Under the pieces are notes generated by a model that saw only the letters and a program-made list of their open reading frames with translations, searched no databases and was not told the origin of the DNA. 22,895 nt of DNA from a virus. The translations under genes were made by a program, and so were the position numbers. Of the stretch, positions 1,155 through 21,326 are shown piece by piece (the first letter of the stretch is position 1; each line of letters opens with the position of its first letter). The stretch lies in the IMG/VR virus record IMGVR_UViG_3300046535_000964, positions 1 to 22,895 of that record. One strand, given 5' to 3'.

Positions 1155-1167
1155 GCTCTGTTCTCCT

Positions 1168-1473
1168 CTACTTCGGTCCCCGAATCCCCGGCGCCAAACT
1201 TAACATTCCCAACATGTCTTCCATAGTTAGCGGCGGGGGCTCTGAGATATCTCGTATCCCTCCCTGCACCGCCAACGGGCTCGGGGGCTGCGTGCGCCGA
1301 GCTACTTCATTCGAAAGATAATACTCCAACGAGGGAGCCAGATCGAGAGTTCCCAAATACGGCGGCTTCATCCAACCCGGCTCACTTCTTCGATCCTCTA
1401 CCTGCCCCGGCGGGGCCTTAGTAAAAGGATCTAAAAGCTCGCCAAGCCTCCGCCGCGACTCCGGGTCCGTCAT
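1168..1473 (-). CDS. Hypothetical phage protein, 101 aa
   Basis: Not recognised. A charged N-terminus (TDPESRRRLGELLDPF) is followed by a Pro-rich, probably extended middle and a short helical, Met/Leu-rich end (TMEDMLGMLSLAPG). There is no membrane segment, Cys cluster or catalytic motif. Its ATG overlaps the stop of the upstream gene as ATGA, so translation is probably coupled. It sits in a run of four Pro/Ala/Gln-rich proteins between the fibre genes and the endolysin. In podoviruses this zone normally holds minor virion or ejection proteins, which is the best guess here. Short disordered proteins evolve fast, so sequence searches may find only close relatives. Confidence 0.65.
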   Translation of the reverse strand: MTDPESRRRLGELLDPFTKAPPGQVEDRRSEPGWMKPPYLGTLDLAPSLEYYLSNEVARRTQPPSPLAVQGGIRDISEPPPLTMEDMLGMLSLAPGIRGPK

Positions 1474-1745
1474 CAGAATCTCCGCTTCAACTCAACCATT
1501 CCGCCGTATTCAGCGGGGTTTCCGCTTTGGGGGGCCTGATACATTCCTCTTAGGCCCAGATCCCCGAAAGGGAGCGGAATTTGAGTACCTCCGCTTATCT
1601 GAGGGATACCGCCGCCCTGAAGTCCAATCTGCGGCATAGGCATAGGCATAGGGCCCGGAGGCGGGACTCCTGGGGGCATCATAGCGCCCCCGCCCATTTG
1701 CGGGGCCTGTGGTTCTAACAACGCGCCCAAAGTTCGACGATCCAT
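1473..1745 (-). CDS. Hypothetical Pro/Met/Gly-rich protein, 90 aa
   Basis: Not recognised. It is almost entirely low-complexity: an N-terminal MDRRTLGALLEP, then PPGVPPPGPMPMPMPQ, then Gly/Ile/Gln/Pro-rich sequence ending in a basic KRRF. The PMPMPM run is coded by three tandem copies of GGCATA (plus strand, 1633-1650). The ATG at 1745 is preceded by AGGAGG at good spacing, lies one base from the upstream stop, and its own stop overlaps the next ATG. The strong ribosome site and coupling argue for a real gene despite the odd composition. It opens with the same type of short N-terminal helix (LGALLEP) as the downstream protein (LGELLDP), which may mean a shared docking segment. Confidence 0.62.
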   Translation of the reverse strand: MDRRTLGALLEPQAPQMGGGAMMPPGVPPPGPMPMPMPQIGLQGGGIPQISGGTQIPLPFGDLGLRGMYQAPQSGNPAEYGGMVELKRRF

Positions 1746-1746
1746 C

Positions 1747-2325
1747 TCAACGTCCTCCTAACGCAGCCCCTAACGATGCTGGGAGCTTCAATCCTCCAGC
1801 GGCTTGTTGAGGGGAGATTCCCAGACTCGCGAACAAGTCGGCGAGATTGCTCTGTATCGGCCGCAGCGCGGGCGGGTGCGGGGTAGTGATCTTCTGCGCC
1901 TCCGGCGGCTTCGGTATCTGAACCCCCTGAAGGGATTTCAAAAGCGCGTCCGTTCCAGGCTTCTTCGTCGCCGCCGACGCGTCGGTTACGTCCGTCGGCC
2001 CCGGCGCACCCGCTGGTCTTGGAGCGGGGAGCGGCACGCTCCCGGGCACCGCTACAGCGGGCTTTGGATCTAACACGCTCCCCACCGTCGGAGCCAGTTC
2101 GCTCCTATACGCCTCCTGCGGCGGAGCGGGGCCCTGCATCGGGTTCGACGGCGTCGGCACGCCCGGCACTGGCGAAGCCGGAGTCGCGGGCGGCGGGGGT
2201 GTTAAGTCCGGGGCTGGCGGCGGTGAGCCAAACGTCGGTGTTACCGTTGGCCCAAGCATCTGCGCCTGTGCCGACGAGATTGGATTGAAAATTCCCATCA
2301 ATCTGTTCAAAAGCTCGGGGTCCAT
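1747..2325 (-). CDS. Hypothetical Pro-rich protein, 192 aa
   Basis: Not recognised. The N-terminal 24 residues (MDPELLNRLMGIFNPISSAQ) look helical. Residues about 30-150 are dominated by Pro, Ala, Val and Thr and are probably disordered. The end (LADLFASLGISPQQAAGGLKLP) is again helical or amphipathic. AGGAG sits 8 nt before the ATG, and the gene is packed between neighbours with 12-nt and 1-nt gaps. No enzyme motif, signal peptide or membrane helix is seen. Position beside Ala/Gln-rich ejection-like proteins suggests a minor virion component, but that is inference only. Confidence 0.65.
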   Translation of the reverse strand: MDPELLNRLMGIFNPISSAQAQMLGPTVTPTFGSPPPAPDLTPPPPATPASPVPGVPTPSNPMQGPAPPQEAYRSELAPTVGSVLDPKPAVAVPGSVPLPAPRPAGAPGPTDVTDASAATKKPGTDALLKSLQGVQIPKPPEAQKITTPHPPALRPIQSNLADLFASLGISPQQAAGGLKLPASLGAALGGR

Positions 2326-2337
2326 AGCGTAGCTCCT

Positions 2338-3204
2338 TTATTTGAAGAGGAAAGGTAAGAGGGCTCCACCGGCCGCCCCGATCCCGGTCCCAACGCCCGG
2401 CAGAAGTGCGCTCCCCAGCGCAGCTCCCGACGCCGCACCGCCGAGCGCCTGGAGCGCCGGGTTCGCCTGCGGGGTATTGCCCGTCGACACTGTAGCCCCG
2501 CCCGGGAGACCTTGAAGCAACGACATGATCTCCTTCGATTGCAAGAATGGCGCCATTTGGTCCCAATTGAAATTCTGCACCTGCTCTCCAAGCTGGGCTT
2601 GCGCGAGATTCTGCCGCACATCGCCCACGCCGCTCGTAGTGATCGCGGGCGCAACTTGTGCACTCTGCACCGTTGGCAAGAGCCCCATCGCTTTCAGTTG
2701 GGCATTTACGTTATTCTCATACGCCGCCTCCGCAAGCTTCGACCCCGTGTCTCCCGCAGCTTGACTCGCCCCTCTACTCGCAAGCCCCTCCGCGATTCCC
2801 TGACGGTTCCCACCAAAGTTCCCCGTCGTCACCGCCTCTCCCCGTATCGCGGGGAGCGCTTGCTCTGTTAGGTTCTGGTAAATCGGCCTAGTTGCGGCAC
2901 TTATCGCCCCCTGAACCGCAGGATTCGTATCCGGGTTAAGGAAATTCGAACTTAGCATATTATTACTCGCGGCCGCCCCGCCCGCCGCGAGCTGTGCCTG
3001 AGGCGCCGCCGCGCCCAGAGCCATCTGCTGCCCCTGCTGTTGTTCGGGCGTGAAGCCCGCGATCTGTGACCCCTGATAGCGCTGGGGGGTCGAGGCCGCA
3101 AAGTTCCTCACCCCCGGCATCGCGATATCCATAAGCTGCCTCTGTTCTGGACTAAGCTGATATTGTGTCGTCTGTGTTGGCTGCTGCCCTGATCCACCTG
3201 ACAT
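2338..3204 (-). CDS. Internal/ejection-like virion protein with C-terminal glycine zipper, 288 aa
   Basis: Gln/Ala/Asn-rich protein. The N-terminus (GSGQQPTQTTQYQLSPEQRQ) and a following GFTPEQQQGQQMAL motif recur in podovirus minor virion proteins that precede lysis genes. The middle (about 80-220) is probably helical. The last 35 residues contain repeated small-xxx-small spacing (GGAASGAALGSALLPG, then GTGIGAAGGALLPFLFK), a glycine-zipper-like hydrophobic segment that could insert in or cross a membrane. No signal peptide is present. AAGGTG precedes the ATG at 3204, one base after the upstream stop. A role as an ejected, channel-forming or membrane-contacting protein is inferred from the hydrophobic tail and gene position. 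Confidence 0.72.
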   Translation of the reverse strand: MSGGSGQQPTQTTQYQLSPEQRQLMDIAMPGVRNFAASTPQRYQGSQIAGFTPEQQQGQQMALGAAAPQAQLAAGGAAASNNMLSSNFLNPDTNPAVQGAISAATRPIYQNLTEQALPAIRGEAVTTGNFGGNRQGIAEGLASRGASQAAGDTGSKLAEAAYENNVNAQLKAMGLLPTVQSAQVAPAITTSGVGDVRQNLAQAQLGEQVQNFNWDQMAPFLQSKEIMSLLQGLPGGATVSTGNTPQANPALQALGGAASGAALGSALLPGVGTGIGAAGGALLPFLFK

Positions 3205-3205
3205 T

Positions 3206-3679
3206 TTATTGCACCTTGAAATGTTTGAGAGGCTTCCTCAACACTACTGCTACGCGCTCGAAGTTGGAAAGCTTCCTTTCCCAGCCTATTCTTCCAATAA
3301 TCTCGCAATATTCACATTCCGTAGTATTCGCCAGCTTCTCCAACGCCCCTGTTAACGTCGGTAAACAGTTATCGAGATCGTTTCCGAGAGCTAAAAAGAT
3401 CTGCAATATTCGGGTCGCAGGAAACTCAATAATTCTACCATAGACGATGAGGCGCAGCTCGCTTTCAGTACCAACGCCCCATACAAAACACTCCCTATTC
3501 AGCACCGCGCAACGCAGGAACTCTTTCGTAAAATACGGAGCCCAGATATGCGGCACGTTGTTCAGTTGTTCGTCGATAGAAGGCCAATAGATAGCGTAGG
3601 TTTCGGGAGTGAGGAGTTCAGCGTGATAATGGGGCGGAGAACCCTTTGTTCCTTGCCCCATCTCAAAGTTCAAATTCAT
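3206..3679 (-). CDS. GNAT-like / T7 gp13-type protein, 157 aa
   Basis: I start it at the ATG at 3679, which overlaps the upstream stop (ATGA) and has GGAGGG six bases before it. The longer open frame to 3769 only runs into the fibre gene. The C-terminus (CEYCEIIGRIGWERKLSNFE, then RVAVVLRKPL) matches a pattern common in phage GNAT-fold proteins, where GR-GW begins the last helix and a hydrophobic strand ends the domain. The N-terminal part (about 18-75) carries Trp/Tyr-rich helices. Phage T7 gp13 and related proteins have a similar size and position near internal virion genes. No clear acetyl-CoA pyrophosphate loop (Q/RxxGxG/A) is visible, so catalytic activity is doubtful. It has six cysteines in 157 residues and AT-richer coding than its neighbours. 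Confidence 0.72.
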   Translation of the reverse strand: MNLNFEMGQGTKGSPPHYHAELLTPETYAIYWPSIDEQLNNVPHIWAPYFTKEFLRCAVLNRECFVWGVGTESELRLIVYGRIIEFPATRILQIFLALGNDLDNCLPTLTGALEKLANTTECEYCEIIGRIGWERKLSNFERVAVVLRKPLKHFKVQ

Positions 3680-5361
3680 CCCTTTCCCTCCAGATCCATA
3701 ACCCGCTTCCGCAACGCCTTCAACTCTTGAAGGATCACCGGCACGTACTTCGAATAATCCACATACCATCTATCCTCCTTATCATCGTAGGACACGGCGA
3801 GAGGGTACACCTTCGCCGCCTCTTGTGCAATCACCCCAAACGCCCGCGACTCCGTTTCCTTCCATTGGAAATCATAAACCTCAGTCTCATCGATAATATT
3901 TCCCGCATCAAAGCTCTTTAAATCCTCCTTAAGGCGTAAATCCGACGAGGTATTATACGCCGTCGTTGTGGTGGTTATGGTGATATTCCCCACCGTAGTC
4001 CCGCTACACGCGAATTGCGAAATCGTACTCGCCCCGTTGATGTTAAGGAATAAAACCGACCCAAACCCAACGTCGCGGCTAAAGAACGCCGCCGCCCCTC
4101 CCACATTGCCCAACTCAATCCCCGTATTCGCATTCCCTAGCCCCGGATTAGACCCCACCGTCGCAACCGCGATACTAAGCCGATTCGTCACCGTCGGCCA
4201 AACCCCGGTGATATTCAACCCTCCCGTCATCACATCCCCGGCCTTCAACACGCGAAGCGCGTCTGCCGCCGCTCCCGCCGTCGATACCGGCTTCGCCGCG
4301 TCACTCGTATTATCGACGTTTCCAAGCCCAACCGCCGTTTTGTCGAGAGTCTGGAAGCTCTTATCCCCTCTCCAATACTGCGCCGTCGTGCCGACTGTTA
4401 TTGCTGCTTCGCGACTCGTATCCGTAGGGTGTTTATGATCCTCTCGCGCGTACTTCGTCGCTATTCCAACCGCCGCAGTGCCGTCCATTAAAGGCGCCAC
4501 AGTCGCGGGCGGCACGACCGCCGCATCAACATACTGTCTAGTCGCCGCTTGTAACGCCGTCACCGGATCAGCAGGCAAATTGACAGGGCCCGCAACCACC
4601 AACGCACCGCTGGATTGAACCTGAAGCTGTCCTGTAGAATTAGCAACCCCGTTAGGGCGGATGTTGACAACGCCGGATGTTAATTCTGTACCAAAAAAAG
4701 CAATAGTTCCGGTACATCTAAACAGAGAGCCTTGAATAGCACTGTTGGACATTAAACTATTACCAGCCCCCCCTGTAATCGAGATATTTCCATTCACAGT
4801 TAGCAGATTTGTGGTTTTATTCCATATCAGATCAGCGTCTCCACCAAACACACTACTATCGTTAAACTGGATCTGAGTATTAGCTCCTCCCGGCGCCCCG
4901 GGCGATACAGTAACGGTCGGCGTCAGCGTGCCCGCCGCATCGTTATAGCTCCACGTTATACCCGTTCCATTCTGAATAAGCGCCGCTGTAGCGTCTTGTG
5001 CATCCTCCGTTGTGAATACCGCGACCCCGCCCACGGCCGCCGCGACAAACGCTGTAGTCGCCAACTGCGTTGTCGACGTGCCCGCGCCCGCTGTCGGCGC
5101 AGCCGGGACCCCCGTAAACGTTGGCGAAGCCAGCGGCGCCTTCAACCCCAAATCGCTCACAAGATTTGTAACATCGCCCTCCGTGATTGGCAACGTAGGC
5201 GGAAACGTACTCGGCTTCCCCGTAATATCCGTCCACGCAACCGTCGACGTGCCCGTTCCCCCAACAACCATCCACCTCGGTGTATGAAATACATACGTCA
5301 CGCCCCCCACCGGCGTGAATTGCTGCCCCTCCGCGGGCGACGATGGAAAATCAAAACTCAT
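3676..5361 (-). CDS. Tail fibre with C-terminal S74 intramolecular chaperone, 561 aa
   Basis: The N-terminus (SPAEGQQFTPVGGVTYVF) is a short beta motif common at phage fibre starts. The TSTTQLATTAFVAAAV segment near residue 100 is a repeat-type shaft motif of tail fibres. The middle (about 165-260) has NTQIQFNDSSVFGG and NLLTVNG motifs. A second shaft stretch follows (about 260-370, including YAREDHKHPTD). The last about 90 residues are a Peptidase_S74 domain: SDLRLKE with candidate autocleavage Ser473-Asp474, GVIAQE and VDYSKYVPVILQ, ending in a coiled coil. Such domains trimerise the fibre and are then cleaved off. The gene begins one base after the preceding fibre gene. It is a likely receptor-binding component. 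An AT-richer patch (about 4600-4870) may be a swapped segment. Confidence 0.9.
   Translation of the reverse strand: MSFDFPSSPAEGQQFTPVGGVTYVFHTPRWMVVGGTGTSTVAWTDITGKPSTFPPTLPITEGDVTNLVSDLGLKAPLASPTFTGVPAAPTAGAGTSTTQLATTAFVAAAVGGVAVFTTEDAQDATAALIQNGTGITWSYNDAAGTLTPTVTVSPGAPGGANTQIQFNDSSVFGGDADLIWNKTTNLLTVNGNISITGGAGNSLMSNSAIQGSLFRCTGTIAFFGTELTSGVVNIRPNGVANSTGQLQVQSSGALVVAGPVNLPADPVTALQAATRQYVDAAVVPPATVAPLMDGTAAVGIATKYAREDHKHPTDTSREAAITVGTTAQYWRGDKSFQTLDKTAVGLGNVDNTSDAAKPVSTAGAAADALRVLKAGDVMTGGLNITGVWPTVTNRLSIAVATVGSNPGLGNANTGIELGNVGGAAAFFSRDVGFGSVLFLNINGASTISQFACSGTTVGNITITTTTTAYNTSSDLRLKEDLKSFDAGNIIDETEVYDFQWKETESRAFGVIAQEAAKVYPLAVSYDDKEDRWYVDYSKYVPVILQELKALRKRVMDLEGKG
3686..3691 (-). promoter_or_regulatory. 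Ribosome site that decides the start at 3679
   Basis: GGAGGG on the minus strand, six bases before ATG 3679, inside the last codons of the S74 fibre gene. It supports 3679 over the longer open frame to 3769. Confidence 0.7.
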
Positions 5362-5362
5362 C

Positions 5363-8300
5363 TCACCGAATCCTCTTAATTCCCGGCCCGTAGAGCCACA
5401 CGCCGCTCGAAAGCGCGTTCTGCGACATAGTGATCGTGGTCGCAGATGGTGTTAGGTTGGTAATAGTAGTATATTTGGGAAACGGCGCAATATTCCCCCC
5501 AACCCGCGTCCCACTACCAGTCCACAGCGGCTTCGACGTAGCCAAAATCTCGGTTGGCCGGTTCGCCGCCGTTTCCGTATCCCCCGCGTAGCTTATAAAG
5601 CTGATTGTTGGCGACCCCGCCGTCGTTTTCATAAACAGCCCGTCGGGCTGTGGAGGCAGCGTATCCGCCCCGTTCTCCGACGCCGGACTAAGATCCAAAA
5701 TCCCCACCGGATAGTAGGTTGCGGAGGGACCTAGGGACGTAGGATCTAACGGAATCCCTACAATATCCGTATCCGCCCCGGTGAACATAGAATACACACC
5801 CCCAACCGCCATCTTAAACCACGTCAACGCTTTCAACGTCATTGCAAACGCGGGGCCCGGGTCAACCGCACTAGTATAATAATGCGCGTACCCGAGTGTG
5901 TAGAACACGTCACCTACTCGGGACGTTCCCGCTATATCCCCCGCAGGGGTTAGTATGCGCGTCACGCCCGACAAGCTCCCTATAGAACCAGATTGTAGGT
6001 TAAACCGAACCATCGGGGCCATGTCGTAGAGATAGCTATAAGTGTTATCCTTCTGCCCAACCCCCCAGATAGATCGGCCTCGGCTACTATTATAGCCATC
6101 GTGTTCAACATTCTGCGTACCATTATACGTTCGCATAGTCAACGCATTAACACCAGAGAACAAACTTGGCCCGGGGCGCGAATCATTATCCACATCCACT
6201 ATAACGTGCCCAAACAGCTCGAGAGCTTTATCCATATTCGCCGGCAATGTAAGCGGGCCCGGCCATCCCTGGAACGTGCAATCCTGAAACGTACTCGGGC
6301 CCGCAAAGTGATAAATAGTCCGCTGATTAAAAATACACTTCCTAAACTCAGCTCGGCCATAATATATAGGCTCTTGCGACCACTCAACAATCGTAGACCC
6401 CGACGACGTCGAATCCCACATAGAAAACAAACAGCTCTCAAAAGTAACAGTGCCACCAGGGAAATCGCCGATAATTATGCCCCCTTCGGTATACATACTG
6501 GTGATAAACAGCGGCTCGCTCCAACCCCCACTCCCATGAAGCAGCCTATAGTTATAGCTCAGGGACATATTATGCCAATTTCCCTGAATATTCCCCACCC
6601 CGTGCCCGTAGCTGTTAGTATCTATACAAGTATGATTGCCATCCATAGTTATATTCGTGAAATCCATATTTCGAGCTTGGGAATTCCCAACCGCAATCCC
6701 GACCTTGCAGGATTGCACCGAACAGTTGGTTAAATGACCGAAGTCGCCGTTTCCGTCCTGATACGGCTGCACCGCAATGCCGATCATGGTATTGACGATC
6801 AAACACCCCGTAACAAACCACTGCGACGACAGCGCCGCCGCCCACGGGTTCGCGATTCCCGCCCCTTTAGCCCATGCCGGGTAGCGCGGAACCGGGTACG
6901 GGTTCGCGGGAATGGTAGCGTAGCCCGAATATCCATCCACCGCTATCCCACAATACGGTTGGAACTGATCATCCTTCGACCCGATTGGGATATAGTTGGC
7001 TTTATTCCGTCTAAACGCTAACGTTTGGGTGAGACCCACGTCGCCGATCAAATCTTGGCCATAAATTGCGAGATTCCGTACTCCAGATTGTCGGCCGCCT
7101 TGAAGATTGATAGCGGGACGATCCTTGAACATCGGAATGATCTCGGTCCCACTATGCAACCCCGCGACAGCGTGGTAACCAACCCCCTCCAACACTACGC
7201 CGCAGAAATTACTACCTCCATTAATAAAACCATAGCCAACGTGAATGGTATCGGATATATAATATGAACCATCCGGCATGAGGACGTTGCTGATTTTGTT
7301 CTCAACCGCATAATCGATAGCCTGCTGGATCGCGCACCAATCTGCACTGTCGCTAAGCGACGTCGCCTTCGGATAAACCGCTTGCGCGGCCGCAAGGGTG
7401 CTGTAGAGCGATGAAAGCAGATTCGGCAGCCCGTTGCCGAGCGCCCCGAAGTCCTTAACGTTGACACCGCTTGAACTCCCGCCCGACCCGGGAGGACCGG
7501 GAGGTCCCGCCGGGCCCGCTGGTCCGGGAGGCCCCGTAGCGCCCGTAGGCCCCGCCGGGCCCGTAGCGCCTGGAGCCCCCGTGGCGCCCGGAGCGCCCGT
7601 TGCCCCCGCGACACCAGTTGCGCCCTGAATCCCCGCCGGGCCTTGCGCGCCCGTCGCGCCCGCCGGTCCTATAGGCCCCTGGATGCCGGGCGTCCCGGGC
7701 GTCCCTATCGCAGCCGGAACCCATTGTGCTGACGTCCCATCATCATACCAAATAAACAGCAGCCCTGTATCGCTCTCCCACCAGAGCTGGCCTACAGGTG
7801 GGCTTCCCGGCGGTGAATCCCCGATCGCGGTATTCGCGCCCCCGCCCGGCGTTCCTGGAGGCCCCTGCGGCCCAACCGCGCCCGTAGCGCCGGTAGCTCC
7901 CGGGGGGCCTTGAATTCCCGCCGGTCCCTGCGAGCCCGTCGCACCCGTTGCGCCCGTCGCCCCCGTAGCTCCATTTGACCCCGCTGGGCCCGTAGCTCCC
8001 ATAGGCCCCGCTGGGCCCGTCGGACCTGCCGCGCCCGCTGGCCCAGTCGGTCCCGTAGGCCCCGCAGGGCCTTGCGGGCCTTGAGGCCCCGGCGGACCTA
8101 CCGTCCCGCCTCCACCACCGCCAGAGTTAAAGAGTTTCCTCCATACTCCCCCAATCCACTCATACGACCCCGCACCCTCGCCCGTTGGGTTGAACGTCGT
8201 TCCATTCGCCGAAACAATCATCCCCTCTCTTGGCTTCGACGGCGCTTGACCCACGGGGCGCAGCTCGACCGCGATCGTCTCATTTAACTCGAGCGATAAG

Positions 8301-8380
8301 CGTTGAAGCTCCTCAACCGTCCACTGTTGAAGTGCCTCGGTCGTTTCAAATTTAGAAGGAACATTCGCATTATAAGGCAT
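5363..8380 (-). CDS. Collagen-like, beta-helix tail fibre/spike, 1005 aa
   Basis: An N-terminal domain with a helix (about 10-40) and a SYEWIGGVWRKLF motif is followed by Gly-X-Y repeats (about 95-179). A short beta insert comes next (182-224, with GDSPPGSPPVGQLWWESDTG). A second Gly-X-Y block follows (about 226-299). GVNVKDFGALGNG then opens a pectate-lyase-3-type right-handed beta-helix (about 306-780), with typical short strands and AIQQAIDYA. The C-terminal about 220 residues form a further beta-rich region ending in YGPGIKRIR. Collagen-like rods with a beta-helix are typical of phage fibres and tailspikes that bind or cut surface polysaccharide. Catalytic residues cannot be assigned from sequence alone. 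The ATG overlaps the upstream stop as TAATG, and the stop is one base from the S74 fibre start. Confidence 0.88.
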   Translation of the reverse strand: MPYNANVPSKFETTEALQQWTVEELQRLSLELNETIAVELRPVGQAPSKPREGMIVSANGTTFNPTGEGAGSYEWIGGVWRKLFNSGGGGGGTVGPPGPQGPQGPAGPTGPTGPAGAAGPTGPAGPMGATGPAGSNGATGATGATGATGSQGPAGIQGPPGATGATGAVGPQGPPGTPGGGANTAIGDSPPGSPPVGQLWWESDTGLLFIWYDDGTSAQWVPAAIGTPGTPGIQGPIGPAGATGAQGPAGIQGATGVAGATGAPGATGAPGATGPAGPTGATGPPGPAGPAGPPGPPGSGGSSSGVNVKDFGALGNGLPNLLSSLYSTLAAAQAVYPKATSLSDSADWCAIQQAIDYAVENKISNVLMPDGSYYISDTIHVGYGFINGGSNFCGVVLEGVGYHAVAGLHSGTEIIPMFKDRPAINLQGGRQSGVRNLAIYGQDLIGDVGLTQTLAFRRNKANYIPIGSKDDQFQPYCGIAVDGYSGYATIPANPYPVPRYPAWAKGAGIANPWAAALSSQWFVTGCLIVNTMIGIAVQPYQDGNGDFGHLTNCSVQSCKVGIAVGNSQARNMDFTNITMDGNHTCIDTNSYGHGVGNIQGNWHNMSLSYNYRLLHGSGGWSEPLFITSMYTEGGIIIGDFPGGTVTFESCLFSMWDSTSSGSTIVEWSQEPIYYGRAEFRKCIFNQRTIYHFAGPSTFQDCTFQGWPGPLTLPANMDKALELFGHVIVDVDNDSRPGPSLFSGVNALTMRTYNGTQNVEHDGYNSSRGRSIWGVGQKDNTYSYLYDMAPMVRFNLQSGSIGSLSGVTRILTPAGDIAGTSRVGDVFYTLGYAHYYTSAVDPGPAFAMTLKALTWFKMAVGGVYSMFTGADTDIVGIPLDPTSLGPSATYYPVGILDLSPASENGADTLPPQPDGLFMKTTAGSPTISFISYAGDTETAANRPTEILATSKPLWTGSGTRVGGNIAPFPKYTTITNLTPSATTITMSQNALSSGVWLYGPGIKRIR
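7484..7705 (-). repeat. Second collagen-like (Gly-X-Y) coding block
   Basis: Codes about residues 226-299 of the 1005-aa fibre, with GATGAPGATGAP and GPPGPAGPAGPPGPPG. At the DNA level it is a degenerate nine-base-type repeat, a likely site of unequal recombination. Confidence 0.85.
7844..8098 (-). repeat. First collagen-like (Gly-X-Y) coding block
   Basis: Codes about residues 95-179 of the 1005-aa fibre, starting GPPGPQGPQGPAGPTG and ending GPQGPPGTPGG. It is separated from the second block by a 43-residue beta insert. Confidence 0.85.
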
Positions 8381-10210: not shown

Positions 10211-10885
10211 CTAGCCCCCGATAGTGTAGCCGCCCAGAGTAGTATTCGGGAATAGCATAACGCCGCCGAATCCAAGGCCCTCAAACCGCCATTCGGGGAG
10301 ATTCATAATCCTCTCCGTGCCGCTCGGAGTCGCAATGAGCGGAAACAGCGAGCTTGTAGTGTTTGACCAATCCGCAAACCGAATCGGACGCCCCGCTCTC
10401 GCCGTCGACAACGGCAGCGTTACCGGCGTCTGGGACGGCGCGGGCTTGTTGATAAGTATCCCGGGCTCCGTCGGGCCTAGAACCTGCGTCCCTGCCACCG
10501 TCACAACACGAAGCTCATCCAACAGCCCCGTGCTCTCGCCGCCCCCGCCGGAAGGAGCGAAATTCCCACTCAACCAAACCCAACGGGAGTTTCCCGAATA
10601 AAACTGCTTAACATCATTGATTCCAAGCGCGGTCTGAAACACGTTCGACGCATCAAAAACGTTGATATTATTCGACGTCCCCACATGCGCGATAAGGAGC
10701 GAGAACTCCTCCCTTAGCGCGGGCAGCTTCACGTTACGGTTTCCCGCGCTCGGGACAAACATATACGACTCTGGGCCGTTGAGAGGGATTGTAAAGTCGG
10801 CCGTGAGAACTACCGTCGCGCACGGCCGCTTCCCGGCGTAATGTCGCATTCGGAAGATGTTGCCGTCCTCGTGATTCGTTCGCAT
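10211..10885 (-). CDS. Decoration/fibre-like protein with two related beta domains, 224 aa
   Basis: It starts MRTNHEDGNIFRMRHYAGK. The first domain (about 23-108) and the second (about 125-224) seem to share one fold pattern: a V-T-A-x strand, an aromatic or Val-rich strand (SYMFVPSAG; GILINKP), a V-x-L-P strand (VKLPAL; VTLPLS), then a LLIAHVG or IRFADWS strand followed by an Asn/Thr-rich turn. This pattern recurs in head-decoration and head-fibre-like phage proteins. A GGGGES linker joins the domains. The same opening (MRTN) and fold pattern occur in the 116-aa protein after the capsid gene, so they look like paralogues. TAATG couples it to the adaptor. Role in head or neck decoration is inferred. 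Confidence 0.66.
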   Translation of the reverse strand: MRTNHEDGNIFRMRHYAGKRPCATVVLTADFTIPLNGPESYMFVPSAGNRNVKLPALREEFSLLIAHVGTSNNINVFDASNVFQTALGINDVKQFYSGNSRWVWLSGNFAPSGGGGESTGLLDELRVVTVAGTQVLGPTEPGILINKPAPSQTPVTLPLSTARAGRPIRFADWSNTTSSLFPLIATPSGTERIMNLPEWRFEGLGFGGVMLFPNTTLGGYTIGG

Positions 10886-11520
10886 TATAGCCCCATTCCC
10901 ATATACTGTGGCCCGACGCTCTCCTCATCCGCGATAATATCGCCTAAGCACGCGGCCCGGCCTTTAGTCATCAGGGCCTGGAATAACGACACAGCGTCCT
11001 TATCACGATTATCCATCGCGAGGCGGTAACCGGCCTCACCTATCAACCACTCCGGCGCACCCGCCAACCATTCATTCTCGATCGGGGAATCTAAAAGCAG
11101 CCCCGCTTTGTAGTAGCTCCATGTAAAAGTGTAATCCGCATCCGAGGGCGCGATGAAATCAATCGAAGTATTGCGGATAACCGCAACCTTCGGCCCGCTG
11201 CGAATCGATGAGAAGTTTGCCCGAAACGTATCTTTGTAGCTCCGTTTAAGCTGTACAAACTGGGGGCCCGACACCGGATTCGGCGTAAAGTGGGGAGGAT
11301 TATCGTCATCAACACGCAGGAATCCCGCCGGCAACGGGGCGCTATGCTCGCCCGCAAGCACCGTAAACGTTTGATCCTCTTGAAGAAGAAATCTCGGCAA
11401 CGTTTTTCCCCTCTCAAGATCCCGCTGGGCTTCCTGAAGCCTCAACACGATAGTGTCAAATTGCCGCTCGGCAAAGCCGAGTCCGTTTTGGATTCGCGTT
11501 ATCGCGTCGTTTCGGTTCAT
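10885..11520 (-). CDS. Phage adaptor / head-tail connector (SU10-type), 211 aa
   Basis: The start is ATG 11520, with GAGG five bases before it; an upstream extension to 11640 would overlap the collar gene and codes for a basic shadow. The opening (NRNDAITRIQNGLGFAERQF, then VLRLQEAQRDLERGKTLPRFLL) is a strong signature of the podovirus adaptor family found in SU10-like phages. A beta region (FTVLAGEHSAPLPAGFLRVD) and a C-terminal helical part (EWLIGEAGYRLAMD) follow. The adaptor forms a ring under the portal and carries the nozzle and fibres. Its position between tail genes and just before the nozzle-like gene fits. Its TAA overlaps the next ATG (TAATG). Confidence 0.8.
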   Translation of the reverse strand: MNRNDAITRIQNGLGFAERQFDTIVLRLQEAQRDLERGKTLPRFLLQEDQTFTVLAGEHSAPLPAGFLRVDDDNPPHFTPNPVSGPQFVQLKRSYKDTFRANFSSIRSGPKVAVIRNTSIDFIAPSDADYTFTWSYYKAGLLLDSPIENEWLAGAPEWLIGEAGYRLAMDNRDKDAVSLFQALMTKGRAACLGDIIADEESVGPQYMGMGL

Positions 11521-11525
11521 TTTAA

Positions 11526-11529
11526 CCTC
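11526..11529 (-). promoter_or_regulatory. Ribosome site that decides the adaptor start at 11520
   Basis: GAGG on the minus strand overlapping the collar gene stop, five bases before ATG 11520. Together with the family N-terminus (NRNDAITRIQ) it fixes the adaptor start. Confidence 0.65.
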
Positions 11530-12487
11530 AACACAACCGGAACACGGGAAGCAGTCCAAAATACGGCGGCATATTCGTATGCGAGCCATCTCCGCCAATA
11601 GAACCCGTAGTAAAAGTATGCGTGTGGTTTTGGCTCTCATCCTCAGTTATCGGGGTCGTGCCCGGAGGATTTGTTACCGCCGTCACCCCACCTCCGCCTT
11701 GCACCGTTGTTGTGTTAGCCCCGCCTTTTATAGAATTAATCTGATGCGTATGGCCGCGATTATTGCCGTCTGTAGTTCCCGTATGCTGATGCGACGGAAT
11801 CTGCGACGCTGTTAACGTCACTGCCGCCACGCCTCCAATACTTCCTATAGGAAAGCTCGCGCCCGCCGCTATCGGGAAGCGGTCTAGCAGATTCGGCGCG
11901 CTAAAACTAGCCCCATCCACGGCGCCAAACATGGTGCTCCATACACTAAACAACTCTGGGCACGCCGTCCGAGGATTCGACTGCCCATTAGCGATTCCGT
12001 ACCCAACCGGCAGGCTCCCACACCACAGAATCTCTCCTGGCGGACCCTCGTTGCTAAATCGGGTCCAAAAACTCCCGTCCCAGAAGAACGTATGCTCCAC
12101 AAACGGTACGCTGATGCGAATCGCCGCGTAGGAGTTAATAGTTTGGCCTGTAGCCGTCGATACGAACACTGGACCAACGTCAAATGTAGTCTTTGCTACG
12201 CGAATTATAAACCCGTTATACGGGCCCGGAACGGGGAGCAGAATCCCGAACGCTGCGCCCGCAGTAGCGCAGACGAAGAGCTTTCCATCGTCCGCCGCAG
12301 TTACGTTAAAGCTATCGCTCTTCCCCACCGCGAACGGCGTGCTGTAGGGGCGATTCGCGCCCGGAAACGTATTCTTCAGCACAGTTTTGATTAAACGAAG
12401 ATGATCGTCGCCAACGTTCTTCTTATCCCCGGCAAGCGGGTTCGAGGTTACAAGATCGCTGACGAAGGTTCCGGCCTCTAAACCCAC
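11528..12487 (-). CDS. Tail collar domain protein, 319 aa
   Basis: Starts at a GTG (12487) with GGGGAG six bases before it. The N-terminus (about 1-55, DDHLRLIKTVLKNTFPG) is a phage-fibre docking motif. Residues about 60-145 form a decoration-like beta domain (NVTAADDGKLFVCATAG). Residues about 150-205 hold the tail-collar core (GEILWCGSLPVGYGIANG, ending in SAPNLLDRFPIA). The rest is a His-rich end with HQH at 233, HTH at 246, NHTH at 287 and NMPPY at 305. In T4 gp12-type fibres such histidines bind metal ions in the trimeric tip. It is therefore a likely short fibre or receptor-binding tip. The stop is 7 nt from the adaptor start, which uses GAGG overlapping this region. Confidence 0.86.
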   Translation of the reverse strand: MGLEAGTFVSDLVTSNPLAGDKKNVGDDHLRLIKTVLKNTFPGANRPYSTPFAVGKSDSFNVTAADDGKLFVCATAGAAFGILLPVPGPYNGFIIRVAKTTFDVGPVFVSTATGQTINSYAAIRISVPFVEHTFFWDGSFWTRFSNEGPPGEILWCGSLPVGYGIANGQSNPRTACPELFSVWSTMFGAVDGASFSAPNLLDRFPIAAGASFPIGSIGGVAAVTLTASQIPSHQHTGTTDGNNRGHTHQINSIKGGANTTTVQGGGGVTAVTNPPGTTPITEDESQNHTHTFTTGSIGGDGSHTNMPPYFGLLPVFRLC

Positions 12488-12498
12488 AATACTCTCCC

Positions 12499-14364
12499 CT
12501 AGTTATAGTGGACGATGATTTGGATCTTCCCGCCCCCGCCAATCCCGCCCGTTCCGCCGCCCGTTCCCGCAGTTCCCAACGCGCCCCCAGTACCTATGGT
12601 GTAGAAGTATGAGGCGGCCGGATTTGGAACAAGCGCAAAACACCACCCTCCTCCCGCGCCACCTCCACCTGCATTCGGGCTCGGCCCCGCTCCACCTCCG
12701 CCCGCCCCCGACCCGGAATTGACCGTCGCGTGGCCTCCATTGAAGCCCGGAATCCCGTTCGCGCCCTCTCCACTCCACCGCGACGGCCCTCCAATGCCTC
12801 CGATAGTCAGCGCCGTGTTCGCGGCGGCCCCGCCATGCCCGCCATTTTGGAAATCCCCACACGTTCCCAATATTCCACCACCCACACCGAATGTATCGCT
12901 CTTGCCCCCGCCGCCGCCATTCGCCCCATACAACGGGCTCGTACAAGCCGGGCTCGTGATGTTCACACAAGTCGGTGTGCCATCCGCGCCGTTCCCCGCG
13001 CCCGGACCCGCGCCTCCGCCGCCACCTCCCGCCCCGACCAACGCGACTTCCATCCACTTCGCCCCCGCAGGGGTTGTGAATACCGCGTTCGTCCCCGTTG
13101 TAAAGACATGCAACGTAGGCAACGTCAGCGTAACCTGAGCTTTAATGAGATCCCCCGTCGACGTCAGACCCGTCACAACCTGCCCCGCTGTCGCCGTTAC
13201 CGGCTTAACGGTAGTCCCGACACTCCCATCCGACGCCATATCGTGAAAGCGTTTGTCGGTCGCGCCGACCCACGTCACTTGCGCGCCCGAGGCGGGTACC
13301 GCCGGTGCCCCAATCGTGTTGTAGAGAACTCCAGTAGCCGTAACCAAGCCAATGTCTAAAGGCGATATAAGTCCTATGCCCGCCACCGCATTCTCGAACA
13401 AAAGCTGCTTGCTGGTTACGTCGCGGCGCACCCGGGCCGCGTTGTCGATTGAATAGCTGCCGGAGGAGGGGATATTGATAGTTCCTAATCCTATAGTCCC
13501 GCCGACCGGCGCGACTCCACTCGCATCAAACAACGTAAAGCCTTTATCGAAATATCCCTCCGATCCTCCAGCCGTGGTAAAATACATCTTTCCCCTCGGC
13601 GACGCAATATTTGGATCGGAAACCGCAACACTTATCTGCCCATAGTGGATTGAGAAGGGGCCAGAGGAGTTCTGCCCGGTAAAGTCGAGCGAATAAATAC
13701 CATCGCCAACTTGGGCGCCCCGGTTCGCAACGTTACGTCCAAGCTGAAATATCGTTGACTCAAGCGCGCTCGACTCCGCCGCCAACGAAATAATGCCTGT
13801 GCTCCCGGTTGTCGAGGTTGTTAGCGGCGTCGCGCCCCCCGCTGTGAACTGCCAGGCATATTGGAGGTTAAACGAGCCATTCCCTTCAGCTTGACATAGA
13901 ATCGGCAACCCAAACGTGTCATGAAGCGCCGGATCTGCATTCACGGCGGCGCAAAGCCTCGTTGCAACCGCCGTCGTGTCATCCCCCGCACCCGCTGTTA
14001 CGCTCTTTGTCTTTGGCGACCCCGCGATCCCACTCGAGGTGAAGGTGATGCTAAATATCTGCCCCGCAATCGCGCTTCCGATCGAGCTATGGGCTTTGCC
14101 GAGAGTTAAAGGGGTTCCACCAACAGAGCCAAGTGGGTATTGAGACCAGGAATTCCCAAACTGCGCGTCGCTATCGAGCCACGGGATCGCGTGGCCAGAA
14201 GTCACATTTGGCGGATACGAACGCGGAGTTAGAAAGGGGGAGAAACCGAAGCTACGGCCCGGACCCTGGCCATACGGGATTGCGTCGAGCGGGCCGCCTC
14301 CCTGCGCGTATGCGCTGGTCGACAACACCGCGAGCGCGAGCGCAAGCGCGAGAATCCATCGCAT
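12499..14364 (-). CDS. Glycine-rich fibre-like protein with apparent Sec signal peptide, 621 aa
   Basis: The first 20 residues are a textbook signal peptide: MR, then a hydrophobic core (WILALALALAVLS), then an AYA|Q cleavage site. The start is firm because GGAGG lies six bases upstream. The middle (about 90-415) is Ser/Thr/Gly-rich beta sequence without a recognised domain. The C-terminus (about 418-621) is a phage glycine-rich domain: TTPAGAKWMEVALVGAGG, then many Gly runs with several Cys and a final GGGGKIQIIVHYN. Gly-rich tips of this type occur in receptor-binding phage fibres. A cleavable signal on a protein inside the head-tail operon is unusual. It may mean export to the cell surface or periplasm, or it may be a hydrophobic assembly element. 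Stop-to-start distance to the collar gene is 11 nt. Confidence 0.8.
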   Translation of the reverse strand: MRWILALALALAVLSTSAYAQGGGPLDAIPYGQGPGRSFGFSPFLTPRSYPPNVTSGHAIPWLDSDAQFGNSWSQYPLGSVGGTPLTLGKAHSSIGSAIAGQIFSITFTSSGIAGSPKTKSVTAGAGDDTTAVATRLCAAVNADPALHDTFGLPILCQAEGNGSFNLQYAWQFTAGGATPLTTSTTGSTGIISLAAESSALESTIFQLGRNVANRGAQVGDGIYSLDFTGQNSSGPFSIHYGQISVAVSDPNIASPRGKMYFTTAGGSEGYFDKGFTLFDASGVAPVGGTIGLGTINIPSSGSYSIDNAARVRRDVTSKQLLFENAVAGIGLISPLDIGLVTATGVLYNTIGAPAVPASGAQVTWVGATDKRFHDMASDGSVGTTVKPVTATAGQVVTGLTSTGDLIKAQVTLTLPTLHVFTTGTNAVFTTPAGAKWMEVALVGAGGGGGGAGPGAGNGADGTPTCVNITSPACTSPLYGANGGGGGKSDTFGVGGGILGTCGDFQNGGHGGAAANTALTIGGIGGPSRWSGEGANGIPGFNGGHATVNSGSGAGGGGAGPSPNAGGGGAGGGWCFALVPNPAASYFYTIGTGGALGTAGTGGGTGGIGGGGKIQIIVHYN

Positions 14365-14383
14365 AGCGTGCCTCCGTTGGAGA

Positions 14384-14418
14384 GGGGGCGGGGAATGTAC
14401 TGTTCCTCGCCCCCTTTT
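14384..14418 (+). terminator. Strong hairpin with T-run on the plus strand (antisense to genes)
   Basis: In the 63-bp gap between the decoration-like and Gly-rich genes, GGGGGCGGGGAA (14384-14395) pairs with TTCCTCGCCCCC (14403-14414) around a 7-nt loop. The stem is fully paired in plus-strand RNA (one G-U pair) and is followed by TTTT. In minus-strand RNA the same stem has one A-C mismatch and is followed by TCTCC, not a U-run. It therefore looks like an intrinsic terminator for plus-strand transcription. In the gene direction it could at most slow or partly end transcripts or protect mRNA ends. Confidence 0.6.
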
Positions 14419-14427
14419 ACACCGACG

Positions 14428-14778
14428 CTACCAAATCACCCAACCAAGGCCCGCCGTCGGGCTTCCCGTACACACCACCCGGGCGGAAGCGTTCGCACCC
14501 ACGCTTATCGCGGTCGTAAACGCCCCACCCGCGCTCGTCTGCACCGCAATCGCACCGGCGGTGAGGTTGGCGAAGATGAACACCTGACCCTTCGGCGACG
14601 CCGCCGCGACCGCAGGATCAGACGGGGGAAGATTAACCGCGCCCGCGGCTCCCAAAAACACCATCGGAGGCGATGCCGCCGAGAGCGACGTCGCCGCCAC
14701 CGTAGTCGTGCTCTCAAACACAGTCTTCGGTCCTAAGCGGAGCCCGTAGGTTTTGTTGTCGTCAAGGTTCGTACGCAT
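14428..14778 (-). CDS. Decoration-like protein downstream of capsid gene, 116 aa
   Basis: Starts MRTNLDDNKTYGLRLGPK; GGAGG lies five bases before the ATG. The body (about 25-116) fits a common phage head-decoration beta pattern: VAATSLSAASPPMVFLGA, AVNLPPSD, GQVFIFANLTAGAIAVQTS, then a final GLGWVIW strand. The start resembles that of the 224-aa protein at 10211-10885 (both MRTN, followed by the same strand order). It lies 11 nt after the capsid gene, the usual place for a cement or decoration protein. The role is inferred from position and pattern. The alternative is a small head-fibre or neck protein. Confidence 0.72.
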   Translation of the reverse strand: MRTNLDDNKTYGLRLGPKTVFESTTTVAATSLSAASPPMVFLGAAGAVNLPPSDPAVAAASPKGQVFIFANLTAGAIAVQTSAGGAFTTAISVGANASARVVCTGSPTAGLGWVIW

Positions 14779-14789: not shown

Positions 14790-16046
14790 TTACGTGTTCG
14801 AGTTGATGTTGCCCAAATACGCCATCGACAGTCCACCGTAGTCGACCATCAGGCTCGCATCACTCTGCCAATACCCACGCCGGACGTCTTCGTCGTCAGC
14901 CTGAACATCGTCTTTCGCCGTGCCGTCCGGGCGCCCCGTCATCGTTACGTATTTGAGGGCTGCGAAGTCGACCACGAACGCGCTTCTCTTATAAAGACCG
15001 TGGAGCGAGAGCAACGGGTGCGATTTCATCAGAACCCGCCCGTTGGGGATCAGGAATTCCTGGAAATCCATCCCGTAGACCTTAACGACGTTGGTCACGT
15101 TAAACACGACCTTCGCCGCAAACACCTTCGACATCTCGATGAGGGCCTGGTTTCCCGCAAACATCATCCTTGTGTCGCCCGAGCCTGAGGTTGTGAAGTT
15201 AAAAGCGGGCGCAAGCGCGTCGAGGAGAGCGTTCGGGAGCCCGGCCGCCATCCCGGTATTGGGGAAGATAGTAGTATTGCTAACGGGGATGAACTCGCGA
15301 AGCCCGCCCATAAAGCGCTTTGGCTTCCCGTTATCGCCGGTCGTCTCCGCTTTGCGGCCGAAGAGGATCGAGAACTCGATATCTTCGGAGTGCTTGAACA
15401 TCTTCCGCTTTTTATCCTCACTATAGTTGTTACTAGTGCGGGTGGTTGTTTTGTCGGCCGTTCCAGTGAGTTCATAGGTGTCTTTGAAGATTTGAATATA
15501 GTTGTTATTTTTGATCGGGTTTCGCGATACAGCACGGGGCACGCCCGTACCTTCCGCGTATGCCGACCCAATAACAGTTACCCACTGGTCGTTAGCGATC
15601 GAGGCGGCGGTTGTATTGCCCGCGCCCCTCCTTACCGTAAACTGCGTGTCCGAAAGGACGTTATCGACCTCCAGAAGCTCGTGATTGAACGTCCCCGGCG
15701 CCGCTTCCGCCACCGGCTCCACGAGAAGTATGTCGCCGGGCTTCAGGTTCGTCGCCGTCCCGAGGTTTGCCCCTAGGGTCGTGATTGTGGGGTCGAGAGT
15801 ATCCACGGTAACGAGCGTGTCGGTCGCGGCCATCGCCCCGTTTACTTGAAGGCGAATCAGCACATTCCCCTCACACCACCATGAAAACTCGGGATCGTCT
15901 ACCTTCTTCTTCGCCGCCTTAGACGACATCGCGAAAATGGGCGCGGTGCCGTTCGGGTTAAAGCGCAGAATGCCTTCGCGGAAGTTTTTGGGTCGTTCAT
16001 CGACGCCCCAATCTCCGGTACCTCTGATTCCAGCCACGCCTGACAT
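14790..16046 (-). CDS. Major capsid protein (SU10/DUF5309-like), 418 aa
   Basis: The segment KHSEDIEFSILFGRK (around 218-232), followed by an FMGGLREF motif, is characteristic of the SU10/DUF5309 major-capsid group, with the HK97 fold. The N-terminal arm (about 1-60, GILRFNPNGTAPIFAMSSK) precedes a beta-rich insertion-type region (about 63-160, GDILLVEPV, ELLEVDNV, QFTVRRG). The remaining core includes QALIEMSKVFAAKVVFNVTN and a C-terminal region rich in Asp. Its length is normal for the family. It has the strongest ribosome site in the window (AAGGAG, 8 nt spacing), as expected for the most abundant virion protein. The scaffold gene lies 12 nt upstream and a decoration-like gene 11 nt downstream. 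Confidence 0.88.
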   Translation of the reverse strand: MSGVAGIRGTGDWGVDERPKNFREGILRFNPNGTAPIFAMSSKAAKKKVDDPEFSWWCEGNVLIRLQVNGAMAATDTLVTVDTLDPTITTLGANLGTATNLKPGDILLVEPVAEAAPGTFNHELLEVDNVLSDTQFTVRRGAGNTTAASIANDQWVTVIGSAYAEGTGVPRAVSRNPIKNNNYIQIFKDTYELTGTADKTTTRTSNNYSEDKKRKMFKHSEDIEFSILFGRKAETTGDNGKPKRFMGGLREFIPVSNTTIFPNTGMAAGLPNALLDALAPAFNFTTSGSGDTRMMFAGNQALIEMSKVFAAKVVFNVTNVVKVYGMDFQEFLIPNGRVLMKSHPLLSLHGLYKRSAFVVDFAALKYVTMTGRPDGTAKDDVQADDEDVRRGYWQSDASLMVDYGGLSMAYLGNINSNT

Positions 16047-19310: not shown

Positions 19311-20837
19311 TTAGGGGCATCCTCTAACAAGCTCAAACCGATCGACATTCGAATCATCGTACAGCGCGTCGAGACTCATACCCCGCTCGAGGAAGGGGTT
19401 CGAGAGATCTTGGAGCGCGAGCGCAGAAGCATCGAGGTCGTCATCGACGCCCCCGTAGATTGGTCCATAGGAGCTGTATTGTTCGATAAAGTGTGAGTGC
19501 TCGGCTCCGATCCACAACAGACCCTGGGACGCCAACCCCCCGATCACGTTCGTTATGCGGGCGAACTTTGACATCTTGTCGTCGACGGGCAGCACGGTGT
19601 AGTACACTCCGCGCCGCTTCATCTCTTGGTCGAGCAACCATTTTAAAACCCTCTGATACGCGACCGCGTCTACCACGATCCGCGAGACTCGATACTGGCG
19701 CGCGAGACGAAACGCCGTCGCAACGGTCCATGAGGGCTCGTGCCCGCGACTGCGATCGCAATCGAGAAGATGATACTCCCCGTTATGTCGCCCCCAGACA
19801 TAATGGCACTCGTAATCTTTGCCCTGAAGGCCCTTCGCCATCGCCCGGTCTGACGGAGGCGGCACGGGGTCGATGCCTAGAACTGCGTAACAGCCCTGCG
19901 GTTTGATGCCGGGCTGGCGGATGTTTAGCCACGGATGTTGAAACGACGCGCTCTCAGGCGAGATGAGACGACATTCCATCTCCCGCATAAAGATTGAAAG
20001 TTTGTTCCGCTGTATCGAGGCCTTCTTGTCGTCGCGGAGCGCGCGGGTTGGGAACCTCTCCTCCCAAGCTGAGAGTTGTTTCTCGACCTCAAGATCCATC
20101 GTCTTGTAGGTCCAACAGGGGACGACGCGGGAGGTCCATTGCGTGTCCTTGAGAGCCTGTTGGGAAACGTCCTCTTTGTGCTGCGGCGTGATGGCCATAG
20201 CGAGCTTCGCGTTTGGCTCCTCCGTCACGGGGGCGAGCGAGTTTTTGACCGCTCCGAGAATAAGGTCCGCAATCTTGTTACGCTGCTCCTCAGTTGCGGC
20301 CGTTTCATCGGTCTGAGGATCGTCGACAATAATAAGGTCGGGACGGTAATCGTCAAAGTTAATTCCGCGCAAGCTCCCGGTGATTCCGGCGGCGAGAACC
20401 CATATTGTATGTCCGAAACCCTTATGCTCAATTTCGATCTGAGTTTCTTCCCACTTCCGCCCGGGGTGGAGATTGAAGGCGGAGCGCCAGAGATGGTTTC
20501 GTTCAACTTGCGTTCGAAGCCATTGAACACTTCTAATGGCGTCCCTTTCGGAAGCACCAACATATAAGACGGTGCGGGAGATGCCATATGCGATCCTTTT
20601 CGAGGCGAAGGTGCGGAGGCGGGTGGTTTTGGTCGAGCCGCGAAAGCACACAAGATTCACAAGCCGCGCGGCGGGGTCTTCGAGTGGCGACCACATTTCT
20701 TTCGCGAAAGCGGGCGAGGTTTGGCGGAACGTCTGCGGGAAGAACGTGCGGGCGTAGAACTCACTATCCACCGCGCCGAGCTTAACCAACTCCGCTACGG
20801 TTAGGGTGACGGAGGCTTGAGGCGGCGCGGGCGTCAT
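19311..20837 (-). CDS. terL: Terminase large subunit, 508 aa
   Basis: The ATPase domain has a P-loop CFRGSTKTT (64-72), with Thr where a second Gly is common. The Walker B strand LIIVDDPQ (168-175) has Asp-Asp instead of Asp-Glu. The coupling motif is in AMAITPQHKED (about 214-223). The AAGITGSLRGINFDDYRPD region (about 149-167) is shared with podovirus TerL. The C-terminal RNase H-like nuclease shows acidic residues at GIDP (Asp323), VVDAVAY (Asp390) and DDDLDASAL (Asp465-469). It cuts and pumps DNA through the portal. The ATG overlaps the preceding stop (ATGA) and the TAA abuts the portal ATG. The overall type looks T7/SU10-like and not lambda-like. Confidence 0.93.
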   Translation of the reverse strand: MTPAPPQASVTLTVAELVKLGAVDSEFYARTFFPQTFRQTSPAFAKEMWSPLEDPAARLVNLVCFRGSTKTTRLRTFASKRIAYGISRTVLYVGASERDAIRSVQWLRTQVERNHLWRSAFNLHPGRKWEETQIEIEHKGFGHTIWVLAAGITGSLRGINFDDYRPDLIIVDDPQTDETAATEEQRNKIADLILGAVKNSLAPVTEEPNAKLAMAITPQHKEDVSQQALKDTQWTSRVVPCWTYKTMDLEVEKQLSAWEERFPTRALRDDKKASIQRNKLSIFMREMECRLISPESASFQHPWLNIRQPGIKPQGCYAVLGIDPVPPPSDRAMAKGLQGKDYECHYVWGRHNGEYHLLDCDRSRGHEPSWTVATAFRLARQYRVSRIVVDAVAYQRVLKWLLDQEMKRRGVYYTVLPVDDKMSKFARITNVIGGLASQGLLWIGAEHSHFIEQYSSYGPIYGGVDDDLDASALALQDLSNPFLERGMSLDALYDDSNVDRFELVRGCP

Positions 20838-21121
20838 CGCTCTATCGCTTTGGGCGAGATGTGAAGCTCTTTCGTCATCACGTCAACTATCCTCTCTATC
20901 GAGTGTTCGTTTTTCTTCGTCGATCCCTCCAACACTGTTAGGCGGGTGTTGATGTCGTCGAGGTGCGGCGAGCCCCGAACTTCGAGAGTATTCACCCGGG
21001 ATTCAAGCCGCACCATGTAGCCCCAGCCGGAGAACGTTAAACTTAAAACGAAGAGCGCTTGCGCTATGAGAAAGTAAACGAGAGTTGAGTTCTCTTTCAT
21101 CCATGACTTTAGTTCTGTCAT
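20834..21121 (-). CDS. One-helix membrane protein with coiled coil, 95 aa
   Basis: I start it at ATG 21121 (MTELKSWMKENSTLV), four bases after the preceding stop. An upstream TTG extension to 21184 would run back into the holin-like gene. A transmembrane helix (about 12-34, TLVYFLIAQALFVLSLTFSG) is followed by a charged helix with heptad spacing (about 37-86, LESRVNTLE ... INTRLTVLE ... SIERIVDVM). This fits a lysis-cassette accessory or i-spanin-like layout, or a membrane-anchored XhlA-like protein. It is not diagnostic. No ribosome site is strong, so it may depend on coupling from the upstream gene. Stop overlaps the large terminase start. Confidence 0.72.
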   Translation of the reverse strand: MTELKSWMKENSTLVYFLIAQALFVLSLTFSGWGYMVRLESRVNTLEVRGSPHLDDINTRLTVLEGSTKKNEHSIERIVDVMTKELHISPKAIER

Positions 21122-21125
21122 AGCG

Positions 21126-21326
21126 CTATCGGACGCTGGGTATATGAAGCCCACCTCCACCAGCAAACTGCAACAAGATTCCAATCAAGATGATAACTCC
21201 GATCGCCACCAAGACTATAGTGGCGATCTGTTGGAGCGGGGGCGGGAGAGGGATCTGGTTTAGAAGCCAGTAGAGAAAGATGCAGACGATTACGAGGACG
21301 ACGAGATAGATGAGCAGAGTAACCAT
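21126..21326 (-). CDS. Small two-helix membrane protein, holin-like, 66 aa
   Basis: Two strong hydrophobic helices: about 3-22 (LLIYLVVLVIVCIFLYWLL) and about 33-54 (QQIATIVLVAIGVIILIGIL), joined by a Pro-rich turn (NQIPLPPPL). It ends in FAGGGGLHIPSVR. The size and two-helix hairpin fit a class II-type holin, but similar small membrane proteins of unknown role (Thivi_2564-like) are also common, so the name is tentative. GAGGA precedes the ATG at 21326. It sits beside a coiled-coil membrane protein and the terminase genes, an arrangement seen in podoviruses that carry a membrane-lysis pair near terminase. The endolysin is about 20 kb away. Confidence 0.66.
   Translation of the reverse strand: MVTLLIYLVVLVIVCIFLYWLLNQIPLPPPLQQIATIVLVAIGVIILIGILLQFAGGGGLHIPSVR

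Follow-up and report, generated by a model that had tools for sequence, protein, structure and literature searches.

A candidate Sec-exported, fibre-like protein with a glycine-rich tip encoded in the late operon of a phage with an SU10-type capsid protein

It is assumed that tailed phages make their fibre proteins in the cytoplasm as components of the virion, and the gp38-type polyglycine adhesins at the long-tail-fibre tips of S16-like phages are virion tip proteins without a signal peptide (SP). Exported fibres of phage-like build are known from bacteria; in particular, the mosaic adhesive trimer (MAT) fibres of Bdellovibrio bacteriovorus are exported and combine an SP, a phage-like fibre and varied tips, and they are encoded by chromosomal genes of the predator and all contain a conserved beta-rich domain of ~130 aa after the SP (PMC10769870). 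We analyzed a 22,895-bp viral contig (the window), nearly all genes of which are on the minus strand, and which encodes a 621-aa protein that, like the MAT fibres, has an SP followed by a phage-fibre-like body and a tip of adhesive type. By analogy, the MAT family of Bdellovibrio appears to be the closest known kind; however, the 621-aa gene sits in a phage late operon, the likeness concerns the SP, the body and the tip, and we do not claim membership of the family.

A search for Gly_rich_2 in 385 alphaproteobacterial genomes identified three further loci (L198–L200) with tandem arrays of SP-bearing proteins that contain phage-fibre repeats (e.g., GPGSSTDNAIARFDGTTGK) and end in a Gly-rich tip or an S74-like domain; the array in L198 (G388:C4:1-12000) consists of four or five genes. 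These arrays resemble the MAT fibres, and they share the SP, the phage-fibre repeats and the type of C-terminus with the 621-aa protein. They differ in that their neighbours are non-phage genes in the stretches examined and in that the proteins of L198 and L200 have a common post-SP motif, C-x-P-G-x-AG...YN...QxC..W, which is absent from the 621-aa protein and whose C-x-P-G-x-AG element was not found in IMG/VR. In the open-licence literature, as represented mostly by titles and the openings of abstracts, we came across no account of a tailed phage whose tail-fibre proteins carry an SP.

Genomic setting and signal peptide of the 621-aa protein

The phage of the window has an SU10-type major capsid protein (MCP) and an SU10-type adaptor (table 1). 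The gene for the 621-aa protein, for which the first-pass annotation gave no strand, is encoded on the minus strand between a 116-aa gene adjoining the MCP gene and the gene for the tail collar protein. Because the phage has at least two ordinary fibres without an SP, one with collagen-like repeats and one with an S74 chaperone, the SP-bearing protein would be an extra. A GC-rich hairpin separates the 116-aa gene from the SP gene; TTTT comes after it on the opposite strand, and since there is no U-tract in the direction of the genes we ruled out a role as a terminator. Elsewhere in the window (20834-21184), the terminase gene is adjoined by a gene for a small, possibly lysis-related protein that has a single hydrophobic segment (ENSTLVYFLIAQALFVLSLTFSGWGYMV).

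Table 1. Coordinates of the features discussed (all on the window)
Feature	Coordinates	Strand	Basis
SU10-type major capsid protein (MCP)	14790..16046	minus	PF17236, E 2.5e-29; anchor of the survey of relatives
116-aa gene adjoining MCP; possible decoration protein by position	14428..14778	minus	No family match in Pfam or PHROGs
GC-rich hairpin (AGGGGGCG.GGAA...)	14383..14415	minus	MFE of the 81-nt region -32.3 kcal/mol, z -1.95
Shine-Dalgarno GGAGG, 6 nt upstream of ATG	14371..14375	minus	Start-site reading
621-aa SP-bearing fibre-like protein, Gly-rich tip	12499..14364	minus	ORF and SP score
Predicted Sec SP, residues 1-20, MRWILALALALAVLSTSAYA|Q	14305..14364	minus	SP score, with random N-termini as reference
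Beta-alpha-beta domain, residues 72-198, possibly tail-sheath/tail-tubular-B-like (weak)	13771..14151	minus	AlphaFold, Foldseek and PHROG
Gly-rich tip, residues 440-621	12502..13047	minus	Composition and fragment scan
Tail collar/fibre protein, directly downstream of the SP gene	11528..12487	minus	PF07484, tail PHROGs
SU10-type adaptor protein	10885..11640	minus	PF24175, E 2.6e-9
SP-less tail fibre, conserved N-terminal fibre domain and collagen-like repeats	5363..8380	minus	PF01391; N-terminal domain profile, E 1.7e-22
Second SP-less tail fibre, C-terminal S74 chaperone	3676..5361	minus	PF13884, E 1.2e-10

The start region reads CCAACGGAGGCACGCT-ATG, i.e., GGAGG-CACGCT-ATG, so that the firm start proposed in the first-pass annotation (GGAGG at a distance of 6 nt) stands. 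The later in-frame starts, GTG13 and TTG14 within the hydrophobic core and GTG54, all lack a Shine-Dalgarno sequence, and initiation downstream of the SP was therefore ruled out. The N-terminus, MRWILALALALAVLSTSAYA|QGGG, has the sequence features of a Sec/signal peptidase I substrate: a positively charged n-region (one Arg), an h-region with a mean KD of 3.1 and an AxA-type cleavage motif, AYA|Q. Neither a twin-Arg motif nor a lipobox is present; the Cys at +1 that marks the lipobox of lipoprotein exclusion factors is absent, the first Cys being residue 138. To score SPs we used a hand-built rule score, not SignalP or DeepTMHMM. The 621-aa protein scores 4.41 vs. 2.34 or less for every other gene (23 genes in the window) and has by this score the sole convincing SP of the window, and the hydrophobic core and AYA|Q site noted in the first-pass annotation are thus borne out. 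Among random N-termini with the composition of related phages, 3e-5 reach ~4.3–4.41 and 4e-4 reach a looser cut-off of 3.5. After residue 21, every window of 19 residues has a KD of 1.6 or less, revealing no second transmembrane segment; the protein is therefore not a multi-pass membrane protein. Near-perfect hexamer repeats (CTCGCG/CTTGCG), whose number could rise or fall, code for the SP core LALALALA (window ~14325-14355).

Fibre-like body and glycine-rich tip

Searches with the whole protein found no relatives in Pfam, NCBIfam, IMG/VR or INPHARED and no useful match in PHROGs, and the single PDB match, 5afo, reflects a Gly run and was discarded as not meaningful. The full-length AlphaFold model (mean pLDDT 38) was too poor for use, and the structure search was limited to residues 72–198, which were predicted from the single sequence with moderate confidence (pLDDT 73). 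In Foldseek this region matched tail-sheath and tail-tubular-B domains with probabilities of 0.99–1.00 but with E values of 3e-3 to 2e-2, and phrog_165 (tail sheath) matched the protein weakly (E 0.047); residues ~72–198 thus bear a weak resemblance to tail-sheath or tail-tubular domains. Residues ~340–410 (GVLYNTIGAPAVPASGAQVTWVGATDKRFHDMASDGSVGTT), judged by eye, could be fibre shaft sequence.

The C-terminal region of the protein (residues 440–621) is 36% Gly, vs. 14% in residues 21–439, and contains four of the six Cys (138, 157, 466, 474, 502 and 575), in agreement with the Gly-rich tip with several Cys described in the first-pass annotation. When the last ~220 residues were searched alone, they matched the phage tail-fibre family phrog_863 (E 1.3e-5), a match not obtained using the full protein; this family is annotated as 'tail fiber assembly', a name that is also applied to gp38. 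The match of the tip to Gly_rich_2 (PF21722) was below cut-off (E 0.1; 13 bits vs. a cut-off of 24.3). A Gly-rich receptor-binding tip is also what gp38-type adhesins have, and a PDB search gave no sequence match between a solved gp38 structure and the 621-aa protein. There is no PF13884 match for an S74 chaperone in the 621-aa protein, and this domain resides in the second SP-less fibre instead. The earlier description of a Gly-rich fibre-like protein with a cleavable-looking Sec signal, for which cleavage is predicted, is well supported.

Signal peptides and N-terminal fibre domains in related phages

To survey relatives, ~120 related loci, in which gene calls are mechanical, were gathered by capsid-anchored searches, and we scored N-termini with a cut-off of 3.5 or more and defined proteins of 200 aa or more as large. 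An SP is carried by 9 of 335 large tail-region proteins vs. 7 of 641 upstream genes, a modestly higher proportion based on raw counts. In addition to the window gene, the tail-region cases comprise two proteins in L002, one in L006 (L017 is identical), one in L030, three in L100 and one in L109; the last (LLAGC) was rejected as a Sec/signal peptidase I case since it is probably a lipoprotein, and a further weak candidate in L078 (score 3.08) probably does not have a true SP. L002 encodes a third SP-bearing protein of 290 aa that scores 3.07, below the cut-off, and the three large proteins of L100 are consecutive and accompanied by a fourth of 95 aa. We consider these tandem runs in L002 and L100 more telling than the difference in frequency. 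By this score, large SP-bearing fibre-like proteins are uncommon but recurrent across the ~120 related loci, and at times three to four of them are consecutive. Small SP-bearing or membrane proteins are common in the same loci, as expected for lysis genes.

Two SP-bearing proteins from other phages share the tip family, one of 1157 aa in L006/L017 (phrog_863, E 9e-14) and one of 414 aa in L133 (phrog_863, E 3e-13; PF21722, E 1e-9). When the SP proteins of L006, L133 and L100 were themselves used as queries, matches over the full length came only from the same or near-identical contigs. The four SP genes that follow each other in L100 (4835-9081) lie between capsid and nozzle-like genes. Two SP proteins of L002 (12255-13496 and 14336-15208), one of them with a LamG-like domain, have a common C-terminal motif, RDL.H.NDN(S/T)P(M/L)WL, which is possibly a sorting or assembly tag. 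L066, a distant relative, encodes a 908-aa SP-bearing protein (1077-3803) that looks beta-helix-like by eye and adjoins a terminase-like gene.

The ordinary fibres of this phage group contain a conserved N-terminal domain of 66 aa, for which we built a profile from 52 ORFs (44 distinct). None of the 52 has an SP, and the SP proteins listed above are not among them. The profile does not match the 621-aa protein, even with filters off, and the copy of the domain in the window belongs to the SP-less fibre with collagen-like repeats; the two proteins are thus the reverse of each other, one with the domain and without an SP and the other with an SP and without the domain, which favours export. In SU10, long and short fibres both dock via N-terminal residues (PMC9509320), and by analogy we infer that the conserved domain, which the 621-aa protein lacks, may be a virion-docking domain. 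It was seen in about a third of the loci, many of which are fragments, and a fibre without it exists (L201); its absence is therefore no proof of an off-virion protein.

Gly-tip fibres without an SP occur in five relatives (L201–L205). Four of these, the PF21722 fibres of L202–L205, share the Gly-rich C-terminal tip and the phage type with the 621-aa protein but, unlike it, have the conserved N-terminal domain and no SP, whereas the fibre of L201 has neither. The first-pass annotation held that homologs lacking the signal would speak against export, and this objection applies in part, as the five are relatives without a signal but cousins that share the tip rather than orthologs. The SP-bearing protein of L133 and the SP-less fibre of L201 are 35% identical across the fibre module and tip and have unrelated N-termini, indicating that fibres of one kind can begin either with an export signal or with an N-terminus of the ordinary sort.

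Export, alternative readings and implications

We lean towards the reading that the 621-aa gene encodes a phage-made, Sec-exported, fibre-like accessory adhesin rather than an ordinary virion fibre. This reading starts from the gene itself, its SP features, the homology of its tip, the missing N-terminal fibre domain and the recurrence in relatives, and would add export, cleavage, periplasmic folding, fibre-like trimerization, ligand binding and a benefit to the phage. Export is argued for by the start with its ribosome-binding site, the lack of a usable alternative start and the presence of an SP on proteins of this tip family from two further phages. It is further supported by the SP-bearing tail-region proteins in L002, L030 and L100, by their higher Cys content and by the Bdellovibrio precedent of SP-bearing phage-like fibres (PMC10769870). 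The off-virion part of the reading is weakened by the location of the gene in a structural operon, the expected place for virion parts, and we found nothing that would take the 621-aa protein through the outer membrane, which counts against an exported adhesin. As an exported adhesin, the protein would be built of virion-type modules (a sheath-like domain, a probable shaft and a Gly-rich receptor-tip domain), with the SP occupying the place of the conserved N-terminal domain of the ordinary fibres. Late in infection, SecYEG would translocate it and it would be cut after AYA-20 (Ala20); the mature protein would fold in the oxidizing periplasm, possibly with disulfides, and be kept there or passed outward. 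Lysis, at the latest, would free it beside the virions, and its tip would bind an envelope or extracellular ligand, most likely as an accessory non-virion factor that might benefit the phage, for example, by filling the receptors of the infected cell itself, of debris or of neighbouring cells.

The Cys content bears on where the protein would fold. After the signal, SP-bearing tail-region proteins contain 1.40% Cys vs. 0.65% for 324 others (Mann-Whitney p 5e-5), and Cys counts are even in 10 of the 11 mature tail-region cases and in L133, the exception being L078. This pattern fits, if weakly, disulfide folding in the periplasm, although the parity was noticed post hoc and the enrichment may reflect domain content instead. 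The even counts, the location in the head-tail operon and a body made of virion-type modules would also suit a virion part that is exported, folded with disulfides in the periplasm and, during lysis or later, added to virions as a supplementary adhesin. We regard this as unlikely: no docking domain was recognized in the 621-aa protein, two SP-bearing Gly-rich bacterial proteins have odd Cys counts after the SP (7 in L149 and 11 in L154), and we know of no precedent for such a part in tailed phages.

The first-pass annotation had offered export or a hydrophobic assembly element as explanations of the N-terminal segment. Predicted export is the better of the two: instead of being a bare hydrophobic patch, the segment is organized into n-, h- and c-regions with an AxA site, which makes an assembly element less likely. 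Correspondingly, although operon position, fibre-like modules and the ordinary Gly-tip fibres of relatives all fit an ordinary virion fibre with an uncleaved N-terminus for assembly or membrane contact, such a fibre is improbable given the classical n-h-c organization with AYA|Q, the lack of any such segment in the 52 fibres with the conserved N-terminal domain and the expectation that such a segment would route the growing polypeptide to Sec. Still less probable is a superinfection-exclusion factor that, once exported, would bind the phage's own receptor, either at the cell surface or from within the envelope, and block further adsorption or DNA entry. Its tip is homologous to phage fibre tips and might recognize a receptor of the same host, and the position in the operon is accessory and variable; however, this gene is late, whereas proteins with an exclusion role tend to be small and to be made early, comparison with Pfam, PHROGs and NCBIfam showed no likeness to any known exclusion protein, and an outer-membrane anchor and a lipobox are both absent. 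Finally, it is very unlikely that the gene is cargo, i.e., a host-type exported adhesin gene acquired by the phage and useless to it, since, notwithstanding the tandem chromosomal genes of this build in L198–L200, residues 21–416 have no relative in 754 sampled alpha- and gammaproteobacterial genomes (a weak result, as the search had no positive control), the middle domain appears virion-like and the GC content of the gene (60.5% vs. 57.3%) does not indicate recent insertion.

Beyond this phage, we consider it possible, though rather doubtful, that some tailed phages, as a class, produce fibres in two sets, one docked on the virion and one Sec-exported, in which an SP replaces the N-terminal domain and which would mature in the periplasm and either act off the virion or join it at lysis; the late operons of such phages would be a reservoir of exported chimeric fibres such as the MAT fibres of Bdellovibrio. 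Recurrent SP-bearing fibre-like late proteins without the N-terminal domain would mean that some phages export adhesins too. If true, this bears on superinfection, decoys formed by debris and aggregation, and it would offer a way in which the exported fibres of predatory and other bacteria could have evolved from those of phages.
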